DNA from: Arthrobacter tumbae
GTDB lineage: Bacteria > Actinomycetota > Actinomycetes > Actinomycetales > Micrococcaceae
Assembly: GCF_016907495.1 (NCBI RefSeq)
Contig: NZ_JAFBCC010000001.1
Location: forward strand, 186,001 to 250,000
Reading direction: 5' to 3'
Length of the DNA stretch: 64,000 bases
The position numbers and the translations under genes are program-made. Of the stretch, positions 45,205 through 50,114 are shown piece by piece; the first letter of the stretch is position 1, and each line of letters starts with the position of its first letter. Below the pieces are notes generated by a model that made no database searches, was not told where the DNA came from, and was given only the letters and a program-made list of their open reading frames with translations.

Positions 45205-46845
45205 CTACATCCGTTCCGGCGCGGAGACGCCCAGCAGATCGAGGCCGTTGGCGAGCACCTGGGTCACGGCGTCGTTCAGCCAGAGCCTGGTGCGGTTGGT
45301 GTCGGTGACCGGCTCATCGCCCAAAGGCGTCACGCGGCAGGCGTCATACCAGCGGTGGTACGCACCGGCGATGACTTCAAGGTGCCGTGCAACCCGGTGC
45401 GGCTCACGGAACTTGGCGGCCTGTGCGACAACTGAGGGATATGAACCGAGGTGGGCGAGCAGCTCACTGTCCGCCGGCTGGTCGAGGGCACCGGCGTCGA
45501 ACGCCGAGCGGTCAACGCCGGCGGCGGCAGCGTTGCGTGCCACTGCGCAGGTGCGGGCGTGGGCGTACTGCACGTAGAACACCGGGTTTTCGTTGGTGTT
45601 CTTCTTCAGCAGCTCCGGATCCAGGGACATGGCTGAATCAGCGGGAGACCGGCCGAGCGAGTATCGCAGCGCGTCCGCTCCCAGCCAGTCGAGGAGATCG
45701 CGGAGTTCGATGATGTTGCCGGCGCGCTTGGAGAGCCGGGCACCGTTCACGGAAACCATCTGCCCGATGAGCACCTCGATGTTGGCCTCCATGTCATCTC
45801 CGGCGCAGGCGGCGATGGCCTTCAGTCGGCCGATGTAGCCGTGGTGGTCGGCACCGAGCAGGTAGATCTTCTCGGTGAACCCGCGGTCCTTCTTCGAGAG
45901 GTAGTACGCGGCATCCGAGGCGAAGTAGGTTGGCTCGCCGTTGGCGCGGATCAGGACGCGGTCCTTGTCATCACCAAAATCGGTGGTGCGCAACCAGACC
46001 GCACCGCCGTCGTCAAACACGTGGCCCTGCCCGCGCAACCGGTCCACCGCCTGCTCCACAGCGCCGCCGGAATGCAGGCCGGTTTCGGAGAAGTAGACGT
46101 CGAAATGGACTCGGAAGGCCGCCAGGGTCTCCTTGATGTCATCCATCTGTGCGCGGTAGGCGATGTCCCGAATCGCAGGCAGCGCTTCGTCGTCGGGCAG
46201 GTCCGCGGCGTCGGGGCGCTCAGCGAGCACGGTGCGTCCGAGGTCGGCAATGTACTCGCCCGGGTAGCCGCCCTCCGGCGTCGGCCGGCCCTTGACGGAA
46301 GCCAGCACGGACGCGGCGAAGTTGTTCATCTGGGTACCGGCATCATTGATGTAGTACTCCTTGGTGACCTCCGCACCGCTCGCGATGAGCACGCGCGCAA
46401 GGGAGTCACCGAGGGCAGCCCAGCGGGTGTGCGCCAGATGCAGCGGTCCGGTGGGGTTCGCAGAAACGAACTCCATGTTGATCACGTGGCCTGCGAGCGC
46501 CGCGTTGGTGCCGTATGCCGGGCCGGCTTCAACGATGCTGCGTGCCAATTCCCCGGCAGCGGCGGCATCCACCCGGATGTTGAGGAAGCCCGGACCCGCG
46601 ATCTCCACGGAGGCAACGCCGTCGAGCGCCTCCAGCCGGCCCTTGAGGAGTTCCGCGAACGCGCGCGGATTCATTCCAGCCTTCTTCGACAGCTGCAGCG
46701 CGATATTGGTGGCCCAGTCCCCGTGCTCGCGGCTCTTGGGCCGCTCAACCCGCACCTCTGAGGGCAGCTCCACGTCGATCTCACCGGCAGCGACGGCGTC
46801 TTTCAGGCATGAGGAGATTGCGGAGGAGAGTTCTTCGGGAGTCAC
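45205..46845 (-). CDS. argS: Arginyl-tRNA synthetase
   Basis: Charges tRNA-Arg. Class I synthetase, 546 residues. The HIGH motif is in NPTGPLHLAHTRWAALG and the KMSKS-like segment in NGARLSKRAGNII. The GTG start at 46845 has a weak GGATGA upstream. argS leads the argS-lysA-hom-thrC-thrB group, as in mycobacteria. Its cognate tRNA-Arg(CCG) lies about 3 kb away on the other strand. Confidence 0.96.
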   Translation of the reverse strand: MTPEELSSAISSCLKDAVAAGEIDVELPSEVRVERPKSREHGDWATNIALQLSKKAGMNPRAFAELLKGRLEALDGVASVEIAGPGFLNIRVDAAAAGELARSIVEAGPAYGTNAALAGHVINMEFVSANPTGPLHLAHTRWAALGDSLARVLIASGAEVTKEYYINDAGTQMNNFAASVLASVKGRPTPEGGYPGEYIADLGRTVLAERPDAADLPDDEALPAIRDIAYRAQMDDIKETLAAFRVHFDVYFSETGLHSGGAVEQAVDRLRGQGHVFDDGGAVWLRTTDFGDDKDRVLIRANGEPTYFASDAAYYLSKKDRGFTEKIYLLGADHHGYIGRLKAIAACAGDDMEANIEVLIGQMVSVNGARLSKRAGNIIELRDLLDWLGADALRYSLGRSPADSAMSLDPELLKKNTNENPVFYVQYAHARTCAVARNAAAAGVDRSAFDAGALDQPADSELLAHLGSYPSVVAQAAKFREPHRVARHLEVIAGAYHRWYDACRVTPLGDEPVTDTNRTRLWLNDAVTQVLANGLDLLGVSAPERM

Positions 46846-47017: not shown

Positions 47018-47482
47018 GTGACCCCCGCCGTGAAGAAGCCTTACCAGCGCTGGGCCCTGACGGGGCTGGCGGCCGTTTCCCTCCTGGGCTCTGCAGCCTG
47101 TGCTGCCGGCCCCACGCCGTCGCCCGGCGCCGGTGGGGATGCCGCCAATGCAGCTGAGCCGGACGCTGGGGTTTCCGGGTCCGGCGACTACGCGGACGGA
47201 ACGTACTCCGCCACCGGGTCCTATCAAACGCCCGGCGGCGAAGAGGAAATCGGGGTGACGGTCACGCTTGAATCGGGCAGTGTCAGCGACGTGCAGACCG
47301 AGCCGATGCCGAGCAATCCCACCACCGAGCTCTACCAGGGCAAGTTCAGCAGCGGCATTGCAGAACAGATCGTTGGAACGCCCCTCAGTGAGCTGAACGT
47401 TGACAAGGTGTCCGGTTCGTCGCTGACCAGCGCCGGCTTTCGGAACGCCGTCGAGCAGATTATGGGCGAAGCCTCACAGTGA
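47018..47482 (+). CDS. Exported FMN-binding domain protein
   Basis: 154 residues starting at GTG 47018, with AAGGAG five bases upstream. An N-terminal signal of about 27 residues precedes Cys28 in GSAACAAG; the lipobox is weak (Ser at -3), so lipoprotein status is likely but not certain. A Pro/Gly/Ala linker follows, then an FMN-binding domain (about 55-150) ending in the flavinylation motif DKVSGSSLTS, where Ser135 takes the place of the usual Thr in SGAT. ApbE is encoded next, so FMN is probably attached by a phosphoester bond. Electrons would arrive from the membrane fusion protein. Confidence 0.87.
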   Translation: MTPAVKKPYQRWALTGLAAVSLLGSAACAAGPTPSPGAGGDAANAAEPDAGVSGSGDYADGTYSATGSYQTPGGEEEIGVTVTLESGSVSDVQTEPMPSNPTTELYQGKFSSGIAEQIVGTPLSELNVDKVSGSSLTSAGFRNAVEQIMGEASQ

Positions 47483-48348
47483 GCCCCGCGGGCCAACTGC
47501 AACGGTTCAGCTTCGACGCCATCGGCACGGCCTGGCACATCGATACCGCGACGGAGTTGTCAGCGGAGGCCCGCGCCGCCGTCGTCCTGGTCATAGAACA
47601 GTACGACGCCGTCTACTCCCGTTTTCGTCCCGACTCGGTCATTTCTTCGCTCGCCGGCGGCGGCAGCGTTACCCTTCCGCCGTCCGGTGAGGCGCTGGGT
47701 GACCTCTACCGGAAGCTCTACCGGCTGACGGACGGGGCGATGTCTCCCCTGGTGGGGCGGTCCCTTGAACAGCTGGGGTACGACGCCGGATATTCCTTCA
47801 TGCCGCACGGCGGCCCTGTGCCTGCCGCTGTCTGGGACGGGACGTTCGAGTGGAGCGGAACCACGATCCGGTCCGAGCATCCGGTGACCCTGGATGTCGG
47901 AGCAGCCGGCAAAGGACAGCTCGTTGACCTCGTGTCCGCGGCACTGCGGGACGCCGGCTACCCGGAGCACACGGTTGACGCGGGCGGGGACATGCTGCAC
48001 CGCGGGCCCACACCGCTGCGGGTCGCCCTCGAGCACCCGTACGCCGCTGATTCGGCGATCGGGGTGGTGGACCTTCAGGACCGGGCGCTGTGCGCATCCG
48101 CCTCCAACCGGCGCCGCTGGGCGGACGGCCTGCACCACGTCCTGGATGCCACAACCGGACGATGCGTGGATACAGTGGTGGCTAGCTGGGTACTGGCCGA
48201 CGACGCAATGGTTGCGGACGCTCTCGCCACTGCCCTTTTCCTTGTTCCGCCCGACGTGCTGCTGGCCGAGTTCGACTTCGACTACGTCCGGATCAGCTCC
48301 GAGGGACGCGCACAGTATTCATCATTCCTGACAGGAGCGTTGTTCTAG
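47479..48348 (+). CDS. apbE: FAD:protein FMN transferase ApbE
   Basis: Covalently attaches FMN from FAD to Ser/Thr in [S/T]GA[T/S]-type motifs. 289 residues. Typical features are YDAVYSRFRPDSVIS, the flavin/Mg site TLDVGAAGKGQLVDLV, and DAGGDMLHRGP, with the Asp-Asp-Ala-type segment WVLADDAMVADALAT. No export signal is obvious, so it may act in the cytosol before secretion, or the N-terminus is unusual. Start GTG 47479 overlaps the upstream stop as GTGA. The neighbouring FMN-binding protein is the clear substrate. Confidence 0.92.
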   Translation: MSPAGQLQRFSFDAIGTAWHIDTATELSAEARAAVVLVIEQYDAVYSRFRPDSVISSLAGGGSVTLPPSGEALGDLYRKLYRLTDGAMSPLVGRSLEQLGYDAGYSFMPHGGPVPAAVWDGTFEWSGTTIRSEHPVTLDVGAAGKGQLVDLVSAALRDAGYPEHTVDAGGDMLHRGPTPLRVALEHPYAADSAIGVVDLQDRALCASASNRRRWADGLHHVLDATTGRCVDTVVASWVLADDAMVADALATALFLVPPDVLLAEFDFDYVRISSEGRAQYSSFLTGALF

Positions 48349-49860
48349 ATGGTCGGACAGCCGAAGTGGCTCACCAAACTCGACACGTTCCTTGGCCGCG
48401 CCACAATGTACCGGCTCGTACTGATTCTGCTGCTGATTCTGACGGCGTACGCGTTTGTCCTGTCCGGCCTTGGGCTCCTTGCCTTTACCCCGGCGGAGCT
48501 CGGCGCGACGCTGGCTACCGCCGTTATCGCCTCCTGGGGTGGCACGCGCGTCATGGCGATGATGCTCCGGACGCGCCCGCATACGGAATCCTCACTCATC
48601 ACCGGCCTGCTGCTCTTTTTCGTGATGTTTCCCTCGGACGACGCCGCCGGTGTGGGCGGGATTGCGCTGGCGGGCCTTCTGGCGGCCGCTTCGAAGTACC
48701 TGATCGCCGTCCGCGGCCGGCACATCTTCAATCCGGCCGCGTTCGGAGCAGCAGCGGTGACGCTGCTGGGCCTCGGCGCAGCCGCGTGGTGGGCAGCCAA
48801 TCCCGCCATGCTGCCTCTCGTGCTCATCTGCACCATCCTGATCCTGTACCGGACGCGGAAACTTTCCATGGGAGCCGTCTTCCTTGTCCTCGCCGTCGGG
48901 ATCCTGGTGGTGCGCCTCGCGGCCGGCGGCACGGATCCTATCGCTGCCCTGCAGCTCGTCTTTGTGTCGTACCCCGTCCTTTTCCTGCTCGGTTTCATGC
49001 TGACTGAGCCGCTGACCCTCCCGCCCCGGCGCTGGCAGCAGCTGCTGGTTGCCGCCGTCGTCGCCGTAGTGCTGGCACTGCAGATCAGTATTCCGCCGGT
49101 GTTCCTCGGACCGGAGTACGCCCTGCTGATCGGGAATGTGGTGGCTTTCGGCATGGGCCAGCGGCGGCGCATCCGCCTGCGTTTTGTGGGATCACGGCAG
49201 CTGACCCCGACCAGCGCGGAGGTCTCCTTCACTCCGGAGGCGCCCGTGCGGTTCGAACCAGGCCAGTACATGGAGCTCACCCTGCCGCATGCGCGGGCGG
49301 ACCGGCGCGGCCTTCGCCGCATCTTCAGCATCAGTTCAGCGCCCGACGACGGCACGGTCCGTTTTGGCCTGCGCCTCTCGGATCCGCCCAGCTCCTTCAA
49401 GGCGGCTCTCCTGAACCTGCGGCCAGGTGCTCCGGTCGATGCGACGAGTGTGGCGGGCGACTTCCTCCTCCCTGCCGATCCGTCAGTGCCGCTGATGCTG
49501 TTCGCCGGAGGAATCGGTGTCACGCCGTTCCTCAGCCAGCTGCGCTCGGCGGCAGGAGCAGAACGCGACATCGTCCTTGTCTACGTTGTGAGCGCACCGA
49601 GCGAGCTGGGCTACGTCGAGGAACTGGCGAACTTCCGGGTGATCCTGTTCTGTCCCGGCGATCCGGGACAGCTGCCTGCTGCCTGGACCCACGGCGGTGG
49701 AAGCTTCCCCAGCGCCGGGGAACTGCGCTCCTCGGTTCCGGACGTTGGCCGGCGGCGCGTCTATCTGTCGGGTTCGCCGGCCAACCTCGCACGGGCCAAA
49801 CCCGTCATTCGCGACGCCGGCGGGAAGTCCATCCGAACCGACGCATTCCTCGGCTACTAG
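48349..49860 (+). CDS. RnfD/NqrB-like membrane domain fused to a ferredoxin-reductase (FNR) domain
   Basis: 503 residues. Residues 20-265 have about nine or ten membrane helices with RnfD/NqrB hallmarks: HIFNPAAFG at 125-133 and FMLTEPLTLPP at 216-226 (analogous to FMATDPV). The Ser/Thr-Gly-Ala-Thr flavinylation site of canonical NqrB/RnfD is absent. Residues 275-503 are an FNR module: RRIFSIS at 323-329 binds FAD, AGGIGVTPF at 386-394 binds NAD(P)H. The fused protein could pass electrons from cytosolic NAD(P)H across the membrane to the exported FMN protein. Starts just after the apbE stop. Confidence 0.85.
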   Translation: MVGQPKWLTKLDTFLGRATMYRLVLILLLILTAYAFVLSGLGLLAFTPAELGATLATAVIASWGGTRVMAMMLRTRPHTESSLITGLLLFFVMFPSDDAAGVGGIALAGLLAAASKYLIAVRGRHIFNPAAFGAAAVTLLGLGAAAWWAANPAMLPLVLICTILILYRTRKLSMGAVFLVLAVGILVVRLAAGGTDPIAALQLVFVSYPVLFLLGFMLTEPLTLPPRRWQQLLVAAVVAVVLALQISIPPVFLGPEYALLIGNVVAFGMGQRRRIRLRFVGSRQLTPTSAEVSFTPEAPVRFEPGQYMELTLPHARADRRGLRRIFSISSAPDDGTVRFGLRLSDPPSSFKAALLNLRPGAPVDATSVAGDFLLPADPSVPLMLFAGGIGVTPFLSQLRSAAGAERDIVLVYVVSAPSELGYVEELANFRVILFCPGDPGQLPAAWTHGGGSFPSAGELRSSVPDVGRRRVYLSGSPANLARAKPVIRDAGGKSIRTDAFLGY

Positions 49861-49960: not shown

Positions 49961-50033
49961 GCCCTCGTAGCTCAGGGGATAGAGCGTCTGCCTCCGGAGC
50001 AGAAGGTCGTAGGTTCGAATCCTATCGAGGGCA
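49961..50033 (+). tRNA. tRNA-Arg (anticodon CCG, reads CGG)
   Basis: A 73-base cloverleaf. The acceptor stem GCCCTCG pairs with CGAGGGC before discriminator A; CCA is not encoded. The D-arm is GCTC-AGGGGAT-AGAGC, the anticodon stem TCTGC/GCAGA with loop CTCCGGA (anticodon CCG at 49994-49996), and the T-loop GTAGG-TTCGAAT-CCTAT. A T-run (CTTTTTC) follows directly and may end transcription. CGG is a frequent arginine codon in this high-GC DNA. Confidence 0.97.
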
Positions 50034-50114
50034 CTTTTTCGCATCCGCCGGGCTCGGCGGACTCCATCGCACCGCCTAGACTGATCCCACGGACGAACGA
50101 CGCGGGAGGCCTTG

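Follow-up and report, generated by a model that had tools for sequence, protein, structure and literature searches.

An Arthrobacter operon of the NQR/RNF-like class with a predicted outward flavin route and an ApbE protein that lacks a visible export signal

Results

A three-gene flavin operon in Arthrobacter tumbae

The stretch of the Arthrobacter tumbae genome analyzed here (64,000 nucleotides, contig NZ_JAFBCC010000001.1, positions 186,001 to 250,000, hereafter the window) contains at positions 47018–49860 three co-directional genes on the forward strand, which encode, in order, an FMN_bind lipoprotein, an ApbE protein and a fusion of an NqrB/RnfD-like membrane domain to an FNR-type domain. 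The FMN_bind gene and apbE share 4 nt, and the fusion gene begins directly behind the apbE stop codon, so an original prediction, made from the sequence alone, was right in describing three overlapping or abutting genes of these kinds. Judged by its gene and domain content, the operon belongs to the NQR/RNF-like class of systems, which was already published in 2021 and 2024.

The first gene (47018..47482, + strand, as are all features of the operon) encodes an FMN_bind-domain lipoprotein precursor of 154 amino acids that matches PF04205 with 24.3 bits (cut-off 22) and carries a lipobox-like pattern with its cysteine at residue 28 (47099–47101). The second (47479..48348) encodes a 289-amino-acid FAD:protein FMN transferase of the ApbE type (PF02424, 126.8 bits), on which no signal peptide is visible. 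The third (48349..49860) encodes a single protein of 503 amino acids, made up of an NqrB/RnfD-like membrane domain (residues 1–271, 48349..49161, supported by hhalign, NqrB numbering and conservation) and an FNR-type FAD/NAD(P)H domain (residues 272–503, 49162..49857). The host genome (G000) is complete, at 3.70 Mb, and contains no ApbE match (PF02424) and no PF04205 match other than these.

The membrane domain retains the positions of a riboflavin site

When we searched Pfam, NCBIfam and the sequences of the PDB with the single fusion protein, its NqrB/RnfD half went undetected, and with a profile built from 25 members of the fusion family the best 60 of 180 matches still concerned the FNR half only. 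Even on the FNR side, PF00175 fell below its cut-off in the window's protein. The original prediction had placed RnfD/NqrB-type homology in residues 20–265, and although Pfam misses it, profile comparison with hhalign did find an RnfD-like match, at residues ~49–267. The AlphaFold2 model also supports the RnfD-like assignment of this half. With the whole fusion as query, the top 50 Foldseek matches were all of FAD/NAD(P)H-reductase types; on a second look an RnfD match was present, in rows that give the first and last aligned residue only.

NqrB of Vibrio cholerae holds riboflavin by Thr162, Asn200, Asn203 and Asp346 (PMC9325719), and our alignments place Thr85, His125, Asn128 and Glu220 of the fusion at these four positions. 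Among 104 distinct sequences, the first position was Thr in 101 and Ser in 3, and the others were His, Asn and Glu in all 104. NqrB also has a covalent FMN, whose carrier in V. cholerae we take to be Thr236; residue 236 in the NqrB PDB sequence is the Thr of SGAT. The corresponding motif, [ST]GA[ST], occurred in none of 118 membrane domains. Because the four riboflavin positions are conserved and this motif is absent, the membrane domain looks to have kept the non-covalent flavin site and lost the covalent one. The same was stated of the class as a whole by Huang 2024 (mSystems, PMC11334425), who described the covalent-FMN site as lost and a non-covalent one as apparently present; residue-level conservation of the riboflavin site is an addition to that statement.

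The riboflavin of NQR serves the quinone step (PMC9325719), and its conserved positions would therefore also suit a fusion that chiefly reduces membrane quinone, with the FMN lipoprotein as a side branch or sensor. We consider this improbable, however, as no NqrA-type partner was recognized among the five flanking proteins scanned, and the fusion is regularly accompanied by the FMN lipoprotein and ApbE, which would be unexpected if these were accessories.

The three genes are inherited together

Of 38 genomes in the genus, 35 have the fusion (split in G033 into two partial matches on separate contigs), and ApbE (PF02424) followed it exactly, being present in those 35 and absent from G005, G010 and G036, the three that lack the fusion. 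Across 37 fusion loci, drawn from all fusion-bearing genomes of the genus but G023 and G033 (33 of 35, with G000 among them) plus G045, G046, G056 and G094, the order fmn-apbE-fusion was invariant (37/37), and argS lay near the operon in 34. In G005, G010 and G036, which group together in a lysA tree, only ~150–160 bp separate argS from tRNA-Arg(CCG), leaving no room for any of the three genes. Because other genera of the family retain the operon beside argS (L077, L079 and L080), the simplest reading is that the cassette was lost as a unit in these three genomes.

The association extends to 80 named loci, of which 77 carry both apbE and the FMN gene, as the original prediction had expected of relatives; of the three exceptions, two are truncated where their contigs end. 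Thirteen of the 80 repeat other fetched loci, and we therefore counted rows and distinct sequences apart. In a class-wide sample, a near full-length fusion was found in 27 of 394 genomes (own included). One more genome of that sample, the more distant relative G499 (L219), retains fmn and apbE next to a fusion frame that, in pieces viewed separately, is interrupted by a stop codon, possibly because the fusion is decaying or because of a sequencing error. Separately, a contig titled Vibrio cholerae strain 35D (WNZI01000018.1, L112) carries a complete operon; because its fusion and that of G026, a genome placed in the window's genus, are identical, the title is probably a mislabel.

The lipoprotein carries a variant of the putative acceptor site

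A lipobox-like pattern with its cysteine (the pattern being what we take to be that of PROSITE) was present in 110 of 114 homologous rows, and it is from this pattern that we judged export. The four other rows comprise L074 and L113 (the same genome), which are masked by N, L135, in which PLAGC is visible though rejected by the pattern, and L102, which is broken at a contig edge. We also considered Tat export of a folded, flavinylated lipoprotein and rejected it: RR occurs near the cysteine in just 27 of the 110 lipobox rows, so a Tat signal is not a trait of the family.

ApbE substrates carry the motif D-x-x-[ST]-G-A-[ST] (PMC12052999), and aligning the lipoprotein to it by position yields the putative FMN acceptor site DKVSGSS (47402..47422), with Ser135 (47420–47422) at the place of the motif's linked residue. 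The 'flavinylation motif' of the original prediction thus stands as to position but not as to form, which is non-canonical. Among 99 distinct homologues the site reads AGSS in 78, SGSS in 17, GGSS in 2 and ASSS in 2 (95 with [AS]GSS), and its terminal Ser is present in all 99. Serine is already known as a flavinylation acceptor (PMC8238504, PMC12052999). The linkage to ApbE suggests that the lipoprotein bears covalent FMN, and Ser135 is probably the attachment site.

A non-canonical site, in which the leading Asp of the motif is kept in only 40 of 99 distinct homologues, and an ApbE that is apparently cytosolic could instead mean that the FMN_bind protein holds FMN non-covalently and that ApbE modifies another substrate. 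We think this unlikely. The fmn and apbE genes not only overlap in the window but co-occur at nearly all of the named loci, it is the sole ApbE gene in 30 of the 35 fusion-bearing genus genomes, and G000 has no other PF04205 match; the invariant terminal Ser and the precedent for Ser acceptors also speak for covalent attachment.

ApbE lacks a visible export signal

The ApbE proteins have the catalytic motifs of the domain: among 116 rows, 115 have the HHxxD-type and 114 the GxGKG-type motif, and AD[AG]xAT occurs in 81 (the others seen were mostly ADGLCT), whereas GGD[MIL] occurs in just 16, mostly with SGD in its place. Upstream of 47479 there is no start codon in the apbE frame, and neither a signal peptide nor a lipobox is visible on the protein. 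We judged signals by length and by eye, considering starts that lie up to 40 nt within the preceding gene. For 6 of 79 relatives no start was assigned. Of the 73 assignable starts, 72 had at most 21 amino acids before the domain and one had 45 amino acids of Pro/Ala-rich repeats.

We extended this survey class-wide to 30 loci (L220–L249), where 23 N-termini were assignable, none of them with a signal peptide by eye, and 7 could not be placed. Because these 23 and the ApbE proteins of MsrQ-like loci in the same genus (L215 and L216, by eye) look signal-less, the lack of a signal probably extends beyond this family, whereas the [A/S]GSS site was seen only within it.

Some genomes of the genus contain a second locus for flavinylation. 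G024 (L215) has a second ApbE, two FMN_bind matches and a Ferric_reduct protein; a second ApbE is likewise present in G006 (L217), G028 (L218) and G020, each of which shows two further FMN_bind matches; and G015 (L216) has an ApbE, a Ferric_reduct protein and a NuoF-like protein.

If ApbE has no signal and its substrate is exported, the likeliest consequence is that flavinylation takes place in the cytosol, prior to export. We tentatively propose, as a serious possibility rather than the expected outcome, that envelope proteins of Arthrobacter, and of many other Actinomycetes, receive their flavin inside the cell. A signal-less ApbE would draw on cytosolic FAD to flavinylate the pre-lipoprotein, here at the variant [A/S]GSS site, and the product would then leave by Sec-type lipoprotein export. 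In favor of such a route, truncated cytosolic ApbEs are active, and a cytoplasmic ApbE of Klebsiella serves a cytoplasmic fumarate reductase; counter to it, a signal-less ApbE failed to complement an apbE knock-out for thiamine-free growth, and the majority of ApbEs are secreted (all PMC12052999). In the available portions of the literature on actinobacterial or cytosolic ApbE, we found no description of a signal-less actinobacterial ApbE acting on exported proteins.

The genomic setting

To the left of the operon lies the divergent argS (45205..46845, − strand, named from its sequence), and to the right tRNA-Arg(CCG) (49961..50034, + strand, by ARAGORN and Rfam). Neither is part of the system; argS marks the conserved locus and the tRNA gene is the right boundary of the cassette, as well as the sole RNA element of the window at the Rfam gathering score. 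The recurrent neighbors of the operon are argS and lysA. A scan of the window for promoter-like sites (1, against 0.3 in shuffles) and terminator-like sites (2, against 2.8) gave no clear signal. In GC content, both overall and at third codon positions, the three genes resemble argS and lysA, so the cassette looks resident rather than newly acquired. The closest homologues of the fusion bear Arthrobacter names (A. parietis, 90% identity; Arthrobacter sp. Soil782, 91%).

The argS gene beside lysA (45205–46845 in the window, and loci L061–L103) shows a pattern of its own. A recount restricted to genus loci (n = 34) distinguishes two diverged types at the same locus, with 13 and 21 members and mean identities of 87.5% and 86.9% within the types and 66.0% between them. 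The adjoining lysA ignores this split (81.6% and 81.5% within, 80.9% between). Because the argS types diverged while lysA does not follow them, the sequences suggest that argS was repeatedly replaced in place.

Discussion

Taken with the observed gene set, domain folds, conserved residues and co-inheritance, the comparisons above make it likely that this operon is an NQR/RNF-like flavin electron conduit, leading from NAD(P)H inside the cell to an FMN lipoprotein outside; the original prediction is supported in its reading of the domains and in the route it had sketched, by which NAD(P)H in the cytosol would feed an extracytoplasmic flavin. For its cofactors, direction, flavinylation and acceptor we propose the following. 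NAD(P)H would reduce the FAD of the C-terminal FNR domain on the cytosolic side, from which electrons would pass to a non-covalent flavin in the membrane domain, held at Thr85/His125/Asn128/Glu220, and from there to the covalent FMN of the outward-facing lipoprotein, which ApbE would have furnished, probably on Ser135. The lipoprotein would then reduce an acceptor outside the membrane, for which ferric iron, a quinone and an oxidized envelope protein are candidates.

In the closest solved relatives the FNR domain mostly oxidizes NAD(P)H, which is one reason to regard the opposite direction, from an extracytosolic donor through the FMN lipoprotein to the formation of NAD(P)H at the FNR domain, as very improbable. 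Another is that no energy-coupling subunit was seen among the flanking proteins scanned. Sequence nevertheless leaves the direction unfixed, and inward flow is allowed in principle by Meheust 2021 (PMC8238504). The original prediction had also noted that other Rnf/Nqr subunits are absent, and indeed none (no NqrA, D or E; no RnfA, B, C or E) was recognized among the five flanking proteins scanned, with no genome-wide search made for them. Because no such subunit was found there, we see no sign of ion pumping, and the 'pump' of the original prediction is without support.

Several points weigh against the outward conduit. The hhalign probability behind the RnfD-like assignment is moderate, at 66–77%. 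The covalent flavinylation of the lipoprotein is made less certain both by its acceptor site, which is canonical in 0 of 99 distinct homologues, and by the absence of an export signal on ApbE. A fusion relative of 42% identity on a metagenome-assembled contig labelled Candidatus Saccharibacteria (JACMLL010000008.1, L178), the third exception among the named loci, has neither an FMN nor an ApbE gene in the 2.3 kb upstream. No acceptor gene was recognized beside the operon, in a clustering of the flanking open reading frames that was crude and left other clusters unannotated. Finally, we found no published biochemistry on this operon.

The original prediction held that a one-protein NqrB-FNR system in an actinobacterium is less described, and this must be given up: Meheust 2021 (eLife, PMC8238504) reported 127 such NQR/RNF-like clusters, primarily in Actinobacteria and the Candidate Phyla Radiation, and Huang 2024 (PMC11334425) provided an AlphaFold-multimer model of the complex. 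The class is known from bioinformatics, the available text of the two papers giving no biochemistry on it. Like the systems described there, the Arthrobacter operon joins an NqrB/RnfD-like membrane domain to a cytosolic NAD-binding domain, has an extracytosolic FMN_bind subunit and apbE adjacent to it, and has lost the flavinylation site of the membrane domain; the one-way flow from NAD(P)H to the outside proposed for the class matches, by analogy, what we propose here. It departs from those systems in the absence of a visible signal peptide on ApbE and in an [AS]GSS acceptor in place of the papers' [S/T]GA[S/T]-like motif.

With Na+-NQR (NqrB, NqrC and NqrF) the operon shares homologous membrane, FMN-carrier and FAD/NAD domains as well as the riboflavin positions (here Thr/His/Asn/Glu), but it has one polypeptide where NQR has NqrB and NqrF as two, and Pfam detects no 2Fe-2S domain in this fusion; no NqrA, D or E was recognized in its flanks, and its membrane domain has no covalent-FMN motif. 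It differs from the Rnf complex (RnfD and RnfG) in that no RnfA, B, C or E was recognized in the flanks, the membrane domain continues into an FNR domain and [ST]GAT is missing. The actinobacterial MsrQ-like systems likewise combine ApbE and FMN_bind proteins with a membrane protein linked to NAD(P)H. They use a Ferric_reduct (PF01794) protein, however, whereas the fusion has no PF01794 match, and their FMN_bind proteins (L215, L217 and L218) carry canonical SGATYTS sites, unlike [AS]GSS.

These family models bear on how often such operons have been counted. PF03116 had no match anywhere in G000, and when run on the 38 genus genomes it missed the operon in all 35 that have it; PF04205 detected the operon's FMN protein in only 2 of those 35. 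Because of these misses, and because ApbE has no visible signal, the 2021 pipeline was probably blind to such loci and would probably not have assigned them, with the proviso that Pfam versions differ between 2021 and here. Members of this type were thus probably undercounted in that survey, and the failure of PF03116, and mostly of PF04205, on this genus suggests that surveys built on these models undercount the class.

The operon also offers a compact test case: its genome has a single ApbE gene and a single FMN_bind match, and a clade within the genus that lacks the entire cassette can serve for comparison. Its signal-less ApbE and [A/S]GSS acceptor open two assumptions to direct test, namely that flavinylation of exported proteins occurs outside the cytosol and that ApbE requires [S/T]GA[S/T]. 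If flavinylation does precede export, this pathway would require no export of FAD, unlike the periplasmic and Listeria pathways.
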